Assembly: GCA_016926975.1 (NCBI GenBank)
Contig: JAFGNP010000066.1
Coordinates: 1-42,470, forward strand
Direction of reading: 5' to 3'
Length of the DNA stretch: 42,470 bases
Origin: Coriobacteriia bacterium
GTDB lineage: Bacteria; Actinomycetota; Coriobacteriia; Anaerosomatales; Anaerosomataceae
Every line of letters begins with the position of its first letter. The first letter of the stretch is position 1. Positions 1 to 41,892 of this stretch are shown piece by piece. The position numbers were made by a program, and so were the translations under genes. A model generated the notes under the pieces. The model saw only the letters and a list, made by a program, of their open reading frames with translations, did no database searches and was not told where the DNA came from.

Positions 1-1602
1 CACCTGGAGTTCGTGGAAGCCATCCGCCGTCTGGCTGAGCGGGCCCACATAGACATCAAGGAGGAAGGCGGGTCTGGGCTGCCGTCAGGCCGCAAGGAGC
101 GTCTGATCGCAGCGTGCGAGGAGGCCGCCGACTACTTCCACAGACAGCTGACGACTGCGCGCGATCCAGGTGCAGTAGAAGCGCGGGAGTATCTGGCCGA
201 CCGAGGCTTCGGTTCGGATGTGGCGAAGCGATGGAGACTGGGGTACGCGTCTCAGGGCCGCGGAGCGCTCGTGGGGCACTTGACCGGGGCCGGGTTCTCT
301 CGCGATGAGATTCTGGAGGCTAATCTCGCGCTTGCTGACGGGGCGAGCCTGAAGGACCGCTTCTTCGGCCGAATCATGTTCCCGATAGCGGATCTGTCGG
401 GGAGAGTCATAGCCTTCGGTGGCCGTGTTGTGGGCAACGGTGAGCCGAAGTACCTGAATTCGCAGGAGACGCCCATCTTCCACAAGTCGGCGAACCTCTA
501 CGGCCTGGACCGCTCGAGGAACAACATCGTGACGAGTGGCTCTGCGGTTGTCGTGGAGGGATATACCGACGTCATCGCGCTGCAGGAGGCGGGCATAACG
601 TGCGCCGTGGCCACGCTCGGCACGGCGCTGACCGAGCGACACGTCAAGTTGTTGAGTCGCTTCGGGAAGAGGGTAGTGTATCTCTTTGACGGCGACGAAG
701 CCGGGCGGCGTGCCGCACTTCGCGCGGTGGAGTTCCTTGATTGGAGTGTGACTCCGGAGGCGGGGAGCGGGCAGATCGAGTTGGACGTGGCCTTGATCCC
801 GGACGGCATGGATCCGGCGGAGTACGTGAGTTCCAAGGGTGTCGAAGCGATGCAGGCGATAGTGGATGGCGCGCGACCTCTCATCGAGTTTGCGCTCGAT
901 TCGCGTTTGGAGGCTCACGATCTCGGACGGCCCGAGGGACGCAGCGCTGCGCTGGCAGACGCGGCAGCCATTCTCGTTCCGGTGCGGGACTCACTGCTCG
1001 GCAAGGACTACATGAACTACCTGGCGGGGAGGTTGCAGACGGACTTCGCTACGGTCCAACGCGCGGTTCCCAAGGGTAGGAGGATTGCGCAGAAGAGCGA
1101 GAGTGTTGAAGCCCCGGTACCGCCAACGCTATCGATCCAGGTGAAGGCGGAGCGGGAACTGGTCCGGCTGGCTGCGGTGGCGCCGTCGGTGCGCAGGAGA
1201 GCGCGGGCACTTATAGATGAGGGCGCAGTCACTGATGAGGTCGCGGTGCGGTTACTGGGGCTGATCTGCGATGCAGACGAAGCGGTCGGAGAGGCCCTGT
1301 ACTCAGCAGTAGCTGTGGCGGATAGACAATCGGCCGAATTGCTGACGGGCTGGTTGGTGGACGCGCGTGAAGTGGAACAAGTAGAATATGCGTTTCGTGA
1401 AATAGCTGCCCGGGTCAAGGAGTTCGCGCTCGGACGTCTAATCTTACTTAAGAAGACTGAGCTGAGCGCGCTCGACCCGAAGCGTGACACAGATGCGTTC
1501 GACCGCCTCTTCGGCGAGATAGCCGATTTGCAGCGCGCGCAGCAGCAGCTCAAGACGCACGAAGCTGGGGCAACCGATGTTGAGATGGAGCACAAGACGT
1601 GA
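1..1602 (+). CDS. dnaG: DNA primase DnaG (5' truncated by window edge)
   Basis: DnaG makes RNA primers at the replication fork. The reading frame is open from base 1, so the N-terminal zinc-binding domain lies upstream and only its last residues ([11 protein letters not shown]) are present. The Toprim catalytic core is clear: EGYTDV, then ATLGTALTE and the acidic motif [11 protein letters not shown]. The C-terminal part, the helicase-binding region, is less conserved. The stop codon overlaps the rpoD start in GTGA, which implies translational coupling and the classical dnaG-rpoD macromolecular-synthesis operon. 533 residues are visible. Family identity is secure from the Toprim motifs and the neighbour. 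Confidence 0.96.
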
Positions 1603-32573: not shown

Positions 32574-32589
32574 ACTCACCCTCGAGACT

Positions 32590-32700
32590 TTCTTCAGGGC
32601 GGGGTGCGATTCCCCACCGGCGGTCATCAGCCCGCGAACCCCGAGAGGGGCCGATCCGGTGAAATTCCGGAGCCGACAGTAACAGTCTGGATGGAAGAAG
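32590..32700 (+). ncRNA. FMN riboswitch (RFN element)
   Basis: The conserved FMN aptamer is complete: TTCAGGGCGGGGTGCGATTC, CCCACCGGCGGT, AGCCCGCGA, GATCCGGTGAAATTCCGGAG, CCGACAGT, and AGTCTGGATGGAAGAAGG running into the ribosome-binding region of ribD. The aptamer ends about 14 bp before the ribD ATG and I see no terminator hairpin with a U-tract, so control of translation initiation is the likelier mode. TAAACT (32571-32576), overlapping the rpe stop, is a candidate -10. Confidence 0.97.
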
Positions 32701-32713
32701 GAAGGGTGCGTTA

Positions 32714-39199: not shown

Positions 39200-39908
39200 C
39201 AGGCTGATAGCGCTCACAGAGCAGGACCTCGCTATCGCGCGGGCCGAGAAGACCCTCGAGGAACTCCCCGAGAAGCTCGCAGTGCTCCAGTTGCGCAAGC
39301 GTCTGAAGGAGATCGAGACAGTCCGGGATCGAGCGAAGGCCTACTGCCGCAAAGCGGAGAGTATGGTTGCGCGCTCCAACGACGAGGCGTCGGCGGTGCA
39401 GGCGAAGATCGATACCGAGCAGGAGAAGGTCATCTCGGGTGAAGTGACTAATCCGAAGGAACTGCAGAACCTCACGCGCGAGCTGGATGCGCTGAAGCGT
39501 CGCAAGGATGTCATCGAGTTCGAGGAATTGGGACTCATGGAGAAGGCTGAAGTCGGAGCCGCTCAACTGGCGAAGGTTGAGGAGGCGCTTGCCGAGGGGG
39601 CTGCCAAGGAAGCTCAACTGATCGCGGACTTCAAGGCGAAGGGGGGTGAGCTCCAGGCGGACATCGCAAAGATGAAGAAGGCCCGCGAGGGTATCAGAGC
39701 GCACATGTCCGAGAGGACGCTCGCCCGGTACGATTCCCTGAAGGGGTCCAAACACGGCATAGCGGTCGGCGTACTGTCGGACGGTCTGTGCAGCGCTTGC
39801 AGGACGCAGATACCTGCTGCCGAGGCGCAGGCCATCCTGGGAGGACCTGAGATCGCCGAATGCCCGAACTGCAAGCGCATCCTGGTTGTGAGGGCTGACG
39901 GCCAGTGA
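39186..39908 (+). CDS. Coiled-coil protein with C-terminal C4 zinc ribbon
   Basis: A 240-residue protein. Residues 1-170 are mostly charged helices predicted to form a long coiled-coil hairpin (for example KLAVLQLRKRLKEIETVRDR). The C-terminus is a zinc ribbon: LCSACRTQIP and ECPNCKRIL supply four cysteines. This family (zf-RING_7, related to FlgN/CT398-like proteins) commonly sits between NIF3 and RNase H genes, as here. A nucleic-acid or translation-linked role is often proposed but unproven. Confidence 0.88.
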   Translation: MSEADRLIALTEQDLAIARAEKTLEELPEKLAVLQLRKRLKEIETVRDRAKAYCRKAESMVARSNDEASAVQAKIDTEQEKVISGEVTNPKELQNLTRELDALKRRKDVIEFEELGLMEKAEVGAAQLAKVEEALAEGAAKEAQLIADFKAKGGELQADIAKMKKAREGIRAHMSERTLARYDSLKGSKHGIAVGVLSDGLCSACRTQIPAAEAQAILGGPEIAECPNCKRILVVRADGQ

Positions 39909-40372
39909 GTGGCACATGGGTGCTCAACAGCGACGGGGGAGCAAGGGGAAACCCTGGTCCGGGAGGCGCGGGGATTGTGTTGCGCTCGCCCGATGGCGCT
40001 ATCGCCGCCACAGGCGGCGCCTATCTGGGCGAGGTAACGAACAACGTTGCGGAGTACCAGGCCTTGCTGTGGGGACTACGTGCGGCTCGTGCGCTAGGCG
40101 CCAGTAGCCTGGTGGTTAAAGCCGACAGCGAACTGGTGGTCAAGCAGCTCCGTGGCGAGTATCGAGTCAAGAACGCCGGACTCAAGCCTCTGTTCGTCGA
40201 GGCCCAAGGTCTTCTGAGGACATTCGAACGCATCGAGGTCACGCACGTCAGGCGTGAGGAGAACGTCGAGGCGGACGCGTTGGCGAACGAGGCGATGGAC
40301 GGCAGGTGTACGGTAGGCGACGCTCCCGAGCCACCCGCGTCCGTGCCGCATCGATCGACGCTGTTCGACTAG
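39905..40372 (+). CDS. Ribonuclease HI family protein
   Basis: Cleaves RNA in RNA-DNA hybrids. It is 155 residues from the GTG overlapping the zinc-ribbon gene stop. The catalytic D-E-D-D set is visible: Asp10 (NSDGGARGNPG), Glu50 (NNVAEYQAL), Asp74 (KADSELVV) and Asp124 (ADALANEA). It lacks the basic protrusion of E. coli RnhA, as in the archaeal/Gram-positive short type. The coupled order NIF3, zinc ribbon, RNase H is a recurring module. Confidence 0.93.
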   Translation: MSGTWVLNSDGGARGNPGPGGAGIVLRSPDGAIAATGGAYLGEVTNNVAEYQALLWGLRAARALGASSLVVKADSELVVKQLRGEYRVKNAGLKPLFVEAQGLLRTFERIEVTHVRREENVEADALANEAMDGRCTVGDAPEPPASVPHRSTLFD

Positions 40373-40383
40373 GAGGCGTTGAG

Positions 40384-40749
40384 ATGTACGAACTGAGCAT
40401 ACGCGGGCACTTCGATGCCGCCCATGCGCTTCACGGGTATCCGGGCGAATGCGCCGGCCTCCACGGTCATACATGGGATATCGAGGTCGCTGTGCGCGGG
40501 GAGAGTCTGGATGATGTCGGGATCGTGTACGACTTCAAGAGACTGAAGGCCGATCTCGAGGCGGTTGTGGCGCCTCTGGACCACGCCTATCTCAACGAGG
40601 TGCCGCCGTTCGATGTGACCAATCCGACGGCGGAGAACCTCGCGAAGTACATCTACAACACCCTCACGGAAGAAATCGGCGGCAAGATCACAGTGACGGA
40701 AGTGTCGGTGTGGGAGTCTCCCGTTGCCAGGATCACGTACAGGCCCTGA
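40384..40749 (+). CDS. queD: 6-carboxy-5,6,7,8-tetrahydropterin synthase QueD
   Basis: Converts 7,8-dihydroneopterin triphosphate to carboxytetrahydropterin on the queuosine pathway. The ATG at 40384 with taggagg upstream gives 121 residues. Zinc ligands: His14 (FDAAHAL) and His27/His29 in LHGHTW; the catalytic Cys23 has the CX3H spacing (CAGLHGH) of QueD rather than eukaryotic PTPS. LDHAYLNE, PTAENLAKYI and VWESP are further signatures. No other que genes are in the window. Confidence 0.93.
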   Translation: MYELSIRGHFDAAHALHGYPGECAGLHGHTWDIEVAVRGESLDDVGIVYDFKRLKADLEAVVAPLDHAYLNEVPPFDVTNPTAENLAKYIYNTLTEEIGGKITVTEVSVWESPVARITYRP

Positions 40750-40823
40750 CGACAGGACGCGGCTCTTCGTGGCGTGAGGGCCGTGAAGCGGACCTCTTCG
40801 CGATACGGTCTTGGAATACAGGT

Positions 40824-40992
40824 GTCCCGAGAAACCCGACCTGCGTGATCCCGATCCCCAGACTTCCCATTTCTTACTCTAGGAATCCCCGACGGTACCG
40901 GCCTGCTTTCGCTTGCCCTTCCCGGGAGAATCCCATCGAGCAGCTACTGGTACGCTGGCTCTCAGGTTCCGCTCGGCCCGACTTCTCGGGAC
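40824..40992 (-). ncRNA. Candidate 169-nt structured RNA, minus strand, closed by a 10-bp terminal stem (novel, unassigned)
   Basis: Read on the minus strand, the segment starts GTCCCGAGAA (40992-40983) and ends TTCTCGGGAC (40833-40824), a perfect 10-bp closing stem. A promoter at 41027-40999 predicts a start at about base 40992, exactly the first base of that stem. Inside, CGAGCGG (40975-40969) can pair with CTGCTCG (40943-40937), and a GC-GAAA-GC tetraloop hairpin flanked by GGC/GCC lies near 40917-40900. Purine-rich single-stranded stretches (AGAGTAAGAAATGGGAAG) are on this strand, as in real RNAs. Size and end-pairing recall 6S RNA, but I cannot match a family core. No ORF in either direction looks coding. 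Confidence 0.55.
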
Positions 40993-40998
40993 TACCTC

Positions 40999-41027
40999 AC
41001 TCTAGGAGACCTGTCGTGGAGGGTCAA
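40999..41027 (-). promoter_or_regulatory. Minus-strand promoter of the 169-nt candidate RNA
   Basis: TTGACC (41027-41022), a 17-bp spacer and TAGAGT (41004-40999) make a strong sigma-70-type promoter. The expected start, 7 bp downstream, is G40992, the first base of the terminal stem. The next minus-strand ORFs are only shadows of queD and rnh, so the RNA is the plausible product. Confidence 0.65.
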
Positions 41028-41241
41028 GCGGGTTCGAGCGATTGGTCGTACAAGATGACGAAAGGCGAGGCTGGCGGGACGTACGGGTCCAGGTGCGGTC
41101 CATCCGGCGCGGTAGGTAGGAGCTCCGGGACGAACGGGTCGGTATCCCTGGATGGGTTAGTATGGGCGAAGAGCGTAGCCGCATAGTCTCGCAATGACCT
41201 GGTTGCTCGAAAGCGATGTCCCGTGCCGAAAGGAATCTCTC
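41028..41241. other. Intergenic region upstream of the DtxR-family gene
   Basis: About 210 bp between the minus-strand promoter and the regulator start. TAGTAT (41158-41163) is a possible -10 for the regulator, but no matching -35 is seen. I see no clear DtxR-type 19-bp operator, riboswitch or ORF. A plus-strand frame runs through 40710-41186 but its composition is not protein-like. Confidence 0.5.
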
Positions 41242-41892
41242 ATGCCGAGTGCGATCCTCGAAGAGTACCTTGAGGCTATCTACAAGCAAGCCCAGCACGG
41301 CGAAGTAAGGCCCGGGCACCTTGCGGAGGCGATCGGCGTCTCGGCTCCGACGGTGACAGCGACACTCGGCAGGCTGCAGTCTGCAGGTCTTGTGGATCGA
41401 GGGCAGAGGGGGAGTGTCGTCCTGACGTCAGAGGGCCGGCAGGCAGCGTTGGACATCATCAGGAGGCACAGATTGGCCGAGCGCTTCCTTGTGGATGTTC
41501 TCGGCCTGCCGTGGTCCGAAGTCCATGAAGAGGCCTGTCAGCTGGAACACGCCCTGTCTCCACGAGTTCAGCAGGCTCTCGAGGAGTTCATGGAGAATCC
41601 GCGGGTCTGTCCTCACGGACACCCGATTCCATCCGCTGATGGTTCCGTTGCCGAGTGTGTCGGAGCGCCTTTGTGTGAGTATGGAACGGGGGATGTCGTG
41701 GAGATCCTGCGGATCGAGGACGAGACAGAGGAGCTGCTCTCGTATCTGTCTTCTATCGGCATGTTCCCGGGAGTCCGTGTTCGGGTCTGCGATGTAGCGC
41801 CGTTCGATGGGCCACTGCTGGTGGAGGTCGGTGAGCTCCGCTACCCGGTGGGTCGGGATGTGGCGGAGAAGATCGTGGTAACCAGCAGCTAA
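41242..41892 (+). CDS. DtxR/MntR-family metal-dependent transcriptional repressor with FeoA/SH3 domain
   Basis: A 216-residue metal-sensing repressor from the ATG at 41242 with aaagga upstream. An N-terminal winged helix (residues 1-60, LAEAIGVSAPTVTATLGRL) is followed by a dimerisation and metal domain with His76, Glu80, His95, Cys99, Glu102 and His103. These align with DtxR His79, Glu83, His98, Cys102, Glu105 and His106. CPHGHPIP follows, then a FeoA-like SH3 domain from about residue 140. The N-terminal EEYLE instead matches the MntR Asp8/Glu11 positions (Glu8/Glu11) rather than DtxR Met10. So iron versus manganese specificity is ambiguous. Confidence 0.92.
   Translation: MPSAILEEYLEAIYKQAQHGEVRPGHLAEAIGVSAPTVTATLGRLQSAGLVDRGQRGSVVLTSEGRQAALDIIRRHRLAERFLVDVLGLPWSEVHEEACQLEHALSPRVQQALEEFMENPRVCPHGHPIPSADGSVAECVGAPLCEYGTGDVVEILRIEDETEELLSYLSSIGMFPGVRVRVCDVAPFDGPLLVEVGELRYPVGRDVAEKIVVTSS

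Follow-up and report, generated by a model that had tools for sequence, protein, structure and literature searches.

The Ro60-associated Y RNA and YrlA RNAs combine an invariant terminal stem with a variable interior. The RNA described here resembles them in architecture only, with a terminal stem that is kept and an interior that varies, and it shares with 6S RNA (RF00013) a size of about 170–190 nt, its own sigma-70-type promoter, sealed ends, a rod shape and a stand-alone gene. The original prediction for this locus had likened the RNA to 6S RNA in size and topology. This held for the size and the sealed ends but not for the interior, which by inspection is a chain of short covarying helices with small conserved internal loops between them, and has no large single-stranded bubble. 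Ms1 (scr3559) RNA of Actinobacteria is likewise a stand-alone actinobacterial RNA with a 6S-like outline; its hallmark is binding to the RNA polymerase core without sigma, that of 6S RNA binding to the holoenzyme and templating of pRNA. As Ms1 exemplifies, RNAs that bind RNA polymerase are able to diverge beyond recognition, and the synteny of Ms1 is with HAD hydrolase/oxidoreductase genes (PMC9130861). The ancestral locus of the present RNA, in contrast, is rnhA/queD, the comparison with Ms1 being one of synteny.

The window, by which we mean the whole analysed stretch of 42,470 nt from Coriobacteriia bacterium (assembly GCA_016926975.1, contig JAFGNP010000066.1), almost certainly carries a real conserved RNA gene on its minus strand. 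Judged by sequence comparison, it is well supported that this gene represents a new RNA family of about 170–180 nt that occurs in two or more actinomycetote classes. The covariance-model match spans positions 40817–40996 (minus strand), from 4 nt ahead of the closing stem to 7 nt beyond it. It scored 166.7 bits (E = 8.9e-42, model positions 1–181) with model R1 and 144.5 bits with model R2, scores that are not independent because the copy in the window was itself among the 28 sequences used for R1 and also contributed to R2. On one side the RNA gene is convergent with queD, encoding a member of the 6-pyruvoyl tetrahydropterin synthase family (40383–40749, plus strand; PF01242, E = 6e-40). On the other side it is divergent from a gene for a DtxR-family metal-dependent repressor with a FeoA domain (41194–41892, plus strand; PF02742, PF01325 and PF04023), the real start of which is probably near 41242. 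The gene neighbours in the window further include an rnhA-like gene (39905–40372, plus strand; PF13456 and PF00075), which is kept as a neighbour in both classes, and genes for a CT398-like zinc ribbon protein and a Nif3 protein, the Nif3 domain scan having been done on the homologue at locus L054. Elsewhere in the window, an FMN riboswitch (RF00050) is located at 32586–32706 of the plus strand (112.8 bits).

The original prediction proposed that transcription starts at position 40992 from a minus-strand promoter, TTGACC-N17-TAGAGT, at the very base where a perfect closing stem begins. Indeed, the promoter scan placed a −35 box, TTGACC, at 41022–41027 and, after a 17-nt spacer, a −10 box, TAGAGT, at 40999–41004 (both minus strand), and this pair (41027–40999) was the sole promoter-like site in 40700–41250, with 0.1 expected in shuffled sequences. 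The inverted repeat GTCCCGAGAA/TTCTCGGGAC is perfect (40983–40992 with 40824–40833) and is the sole exact repeat of at least 7 nt in the region. When G-U pairs are counted, the closing stem, termed P1, extends to 13 bp between a 5′ arm, GUCCCGAGAAGUC (40980–40992, minus strand), which begins at the predicted transcription start, and a 3′ arm, GGUUUCUCGGGAC (40824–40836, minus strand), assigned from the pairing in 80 aligned copies and from the exact inverted repeat. Since the −10 box ends 6–8 nt ahead of the stem in all 80 copies, the coincidence of promoter and stem is conserved and not due to chance. The view that the region lacks a credible ORF was upheld as well, the three sense frames being open in merely 14, 6 and 17 of the 80 copies.

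Folding of the minus strand gave −91.8 kcal/mol (z = −6.5), which none of 200 shuffled sequences equalled, as compared to a z of −2.4 for the plus strand. In the minimum free energy (MFE) fold of the window copy, the 5′ arm of P3, CCAG (40955–40958, minus strand), pairs with CUGG (40861–40858), a register that is offset by one relative to the family, where all five pairs of P3 (helix 5) covary. According to the 80 copies, the central internal loop consists of AGUA on its 5′ side, after UACC (40945–40948, minus strand), and GAAA on its 3′ side, followed by UGGGAA (40870–40873, minus strand). The family pattern is UACC-AGUA/GAAA-NGGGAA, with GAAA present in 79 of the 80 copies and AGUA in most of them, the others having AGCA, AGCT, AGGA or AGAA; a second loop reads GAAA/AGUA. 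The resemblance of these AGUA/GAAA internal loops to loop-E-type modules is suggestive. A strict loop E/sarcin-ricin reading, which many copies would fit, was rejected on account of the variable third and fourth bases. The predicted GAAA-capped hairpin proved to be real: GC-GAAA-GC, with a GNRA tetraloop (40912–40905, minus strand), is found in the MFE fold and as apical helix 10 of the 80-copy set, where about 99% of cells are paired, and GNRA loops recur across the family. No such confirmation was obtained for the proposed 7-bp interior stem, which is absent as an uninterrupted Watson-Crick helix.

Covariation in the stems among relatives, which had been called for beforehand, is present. 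For the 28-copy structure of 41 pairs, in which 94.2% of cells are paired, the covariation score was 0.220 versus 0.123 after shuffling (0 of 500 shuffles as high), and it dropped to at most 0.087 when the partners were slid. With 80 copies, the score rose to 0.430 versus 0.199 (0 of 500; at most 0.095 when slid) and 29 of 40 base pairs displayed two-sided compensatory changes, counts that lean towards the model because the 80-row alignment, like alignments A2–A4, was fitted to the model structure. The alignments include close relatives, so that their cells are not independent events. Furthermore, RNAalifold returned essentially the same helices, with two-sided changes at 31 of 42 pairs, for 18 distant copies that had been found through R1, a model built from the order's own copies, but were kept out of its building and aligned on sequence alone. 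P1 itself is paired in 99.5% of cells over the 80 copies, with two-sided changes at 6 of its 13 pairs, and it contains a tandem wobble (G-U in 77 and U-G in 58 of the 80 copies). The strand of the RNA is fixed by the conservation of these G-U wobbles in the closing stem. Low-scoring antisense matches to the model were excluded as a palindromic shadow of the rod. The commonest length between the ends of P1 is 168–172 nt. Homologues, covariation and a conserved promoter thus back the proposal of a stable RNA with paired ends, for which we infer a regulatory function.

The host assembly contains three copies of the RNA. A DNA search with a 321-base query detected the two further places, at 73% and 69% identity, and both match from query base 109, which is window position 40992, the predicted start. 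DNA similarity was found in 47 of 61 relatives, very often from exactly the predicted first base. A pattern scan of named contigs returned 40 stretches labelled as Coriobacteriia, Anaerosomatales or Actinobacteria/Actinomycetes metagenome-assembled genomes, including Anaerosomatales bacterium Yes46-06, Coriobacteriaceae bacterium EMTCatB1 and one filed as Aeromicrobium. Going by the names of the matching genomes, the order of the window is probably Anaerosomatales (class Coriobacteriia), the former OPB41, which has been described previously (PMC9686372).

Of the 298 Coriobacteriia genomes searched with model R1, 64 have the RNA, all of them in the window's order, where it covers 64 of the 69 sampled genomes; four of the five without it are at most 73% complete. 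Outside that order, R1 gave no hits in the class, and R2 matched 0 of 40 genomes from a neighbouring order of the class, a search that a very divergent copy could escape. In the phylum sample, R1 also matched over its full length in roughly ten more families, all belonging to one second actinomycetote class. R2 matched 35 of the 396 genomes of this sample and 29 of the 36 genomes of the second class, while in a third class 5 of 41 matched weakly, with RNAs that share P1 and differ in their interiors. The label 'lineage-specific', under which the RNA was originally placed, is therefore too narrow for an RNA that is order-wide and present in a second class. Most genomes have one to three copies, and in several (L053–L059) a pair of copies is separated by about 0.2–2.4 kb, in divergent or tandem arrangement, and often flanks dtxR. 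No match to the RNA was found in phage and plasmid records, and the exact core pattern was not found in viral contigs.

Of the order's 62 aligned copies, 46 have queD or rnhA close by, mostly in convergent orientation, as do 11 of the 18 in the second class. The queD/rnhA locus is therefore regarded as ancestral, with queD, rnhA and the genes for the CT398-like zinc-ribbon and Nif3 proteins as its neighbours. The order's other copies nearly all group into a single clade in a rapid FastTree phylogeny of all 80 sequences, read without support values, which is consistent with one old duplication behind the second-locus copies. Their neighbours are varied (e.g. gatB), and beyond the ancestral neighbourhood there is no consistently linked gene. 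Because copies adjoin unrelated genes and each has its own promoter, the RNA can be considered stand-alone. In two genomes of the second class, a class A RNase P RNA is encoded a few hundred bases from the RNA (L151, 6425–6866, plus strand; L153, 5521–5978, plus strand).

P1 also occurs on RNAs of 94 to about 160 nt with other interiors. These shorter or divergent forms are located at L191 (3401–3494, minus strand), L188 (3105–3250, plus strand), L190 (3472–3618, minus strand) and L183 (3689–3839 and 3407–3565, both minus strand). Most of them also carry a promoter, and two forms of 146–147 nt occupy the ancestral queD/rnhA locus. A 55-nt element at L196 (3565–3619, minus strand), comprising P1, a UUCG hairpin and a promoter, is a possible member of the family. 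Locus L183 additionally contains a match to the cspA thermoregulator below threshold (651–1075, minus strand; 60.1 bits versus a gathering threshold of 78).

A sigma-70-type promoter precedes all 80 copies, with a 17-nt spacer in 71 of them. The mean promoter score was 10.0 versus 5.9 for random sites within those loci, in a scoring scheme of our own devising and with copies that, being related, are not independent events. In the window's order, a conserved upstream box begins 39 nt ahead of the −35 box; in the window it reads GCCTTTCGTCAT (41055–41066, minus strand), the order consensus is approximately ACCGTTCRTCRC, and the CC is found in 94–97% of the order's 62 copies. Among the other collected loci, strong matches to box plus promoter occurred almost solely at the RNA's own promoters. 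This box is likely the site for an activator. A/T-rich tracts with a spacing of about ten bases lie between the box and the −35 box in the order; the second class has A/T tracts, but the upstream box is absent there. At the other end of the gene, a U-rich tract follows directly past P1, where the T fraction is 0.40–0.60 over about 12 nt versus about 0.2 farther on. By sequence, P1 and this tail may act as a terminator, although a simple scan of the window copy found no terminator-like site.

In agreement with the original view that the RNA belongs to no recognised family, Rfam 15 returned no match to it, either for the whole window at gathering thresholds or for 40750–41050 on both strands at E up to 10, and in seven distant loci searched at E up to 1 no match fell on the RNA. 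No report of the RNA was found in the literature, one 26-genome survey included. The 6S RNA model (RF00013) was among those without a match in 40750–41050 on either strand at E up to 10. Size, sealed ends and rod shape would all suit an RNA polymerase-binding RNA of the 6S (or Ms1) type, either diverged or present as a second such RNA, and Ms1 sets a precedent for such divergence (PMC9130861). We nevertheless consider this reading unlikely, since Rfam has no match, the interior loops are small and structured, the published Ms1 synteny is different, and canonical 6S RNA is encoded separately, with one match each in 54 of 61 relatives (40 above the Rfam cut-off) and likewise at another place in 27 of the 36 genomes of the second class. 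In the host assembly, which is 93.7% complete, no 6S match was found. It is similarly improbable that the gene specifies a base-pairing, RyhB-like trans sRNA, perhaps under the neighbouring DtxR regulator. The dedicated upstream box and the divergent dtxR beside ancestral-locus copies in the window's order would fit such an sRNA, but second-locus copies have the same box without an adjoining dtxR, dtxR was not detected near second-class copies, and the best-conserved unpaired segments reside in short internal loops, with no extended single-stranded seed conserved.

Flanked in the window by queD and dtxR, the RNA could alternatively be a cis element, be it a bidirectional terminator or a dtxR/queD leader. 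This is very improbable and largely refuted by the copies elsewhere, which at the second locus lie beside other genes such as gatB; moreover, the promoter is aimed away from dtxR and the end of the RNA lies opposite queD. Inverted ends, a variable interior and several copies per genome are also what a mobile element would show, a MITE whose terminal inverted repeats mimic a closing stem. Such an origin, or one from phage, is barely conceivable: the conserved G-U wobbles of the end stem would be A-C mismatches on the opposite strand, the interior helices covary, the promoter is fixed outside the stem, and an orthologous, ancestral locus is kept in two classes with mostly one to three copies per genome. 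Scarcely more credible is a Y-RNA-like RNA bound by Ro60. The kept terminal stem and varying interior recall one, but the TROVE domain (PF05731) was absent from all 61 relatives while being detected in the positive control, Deinobacterium chartae, and there was again no match in Rfam.

We put at about even the chance that the RNA is a trans-acting, protein-binding RNA. Sequence comparison gives good support to a sigma-70-type promoter, with a dedicated upstream box in the window's order, whose predicted start is the initial base of P1, and to a fold of the RNA as a rod of P1, P2, P3, the conserved internal loop, P5 and a variable arm with a GNRA cap. P1 and the following U-rich tract may serve as the terminator. 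That P1 is the most conserved element and persists when the interior changes, its sequence and tandem G-U wobbles being kept while the interior shrinks or diverges, suggests that an RNA-binding protein recognises P1 as its handle; promoter escape or termination could also be the reason for its conserved sequence. The small conserved AGUA/GAAA-type internal loops may provide a second binding surface. The RNA would then be a protein-binding regulator or a scaffold for a ribonucleoprotein (RNP), rather than an mRNA leader or an antisense RNA. More tentatively, the family may be ancestral to much of the deep-branching Actinomycetota, as an invariant end-stem handle with interchangeable interior modules, repeated AGUA/GAAA-type loops and a promoter served by a dedicated activator box, and may form a new RNP with a housekeeping or stress role beside 6S RNA.

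If this is right, two classes of a phylum with few known structured non-coding RNAs have kept a family of this kind, one that Rfam 15 lacks and that has a clear architecture of sealed ends, a fixed promoter and conserved internal loops. With the alignments and covariance models at hand, the idea can now be put to the test in cultured Anaerosomatales. Since the RNA coexists with 6S RNA, it may point to a second abundant regulatory RNP that has gone unrecognised.
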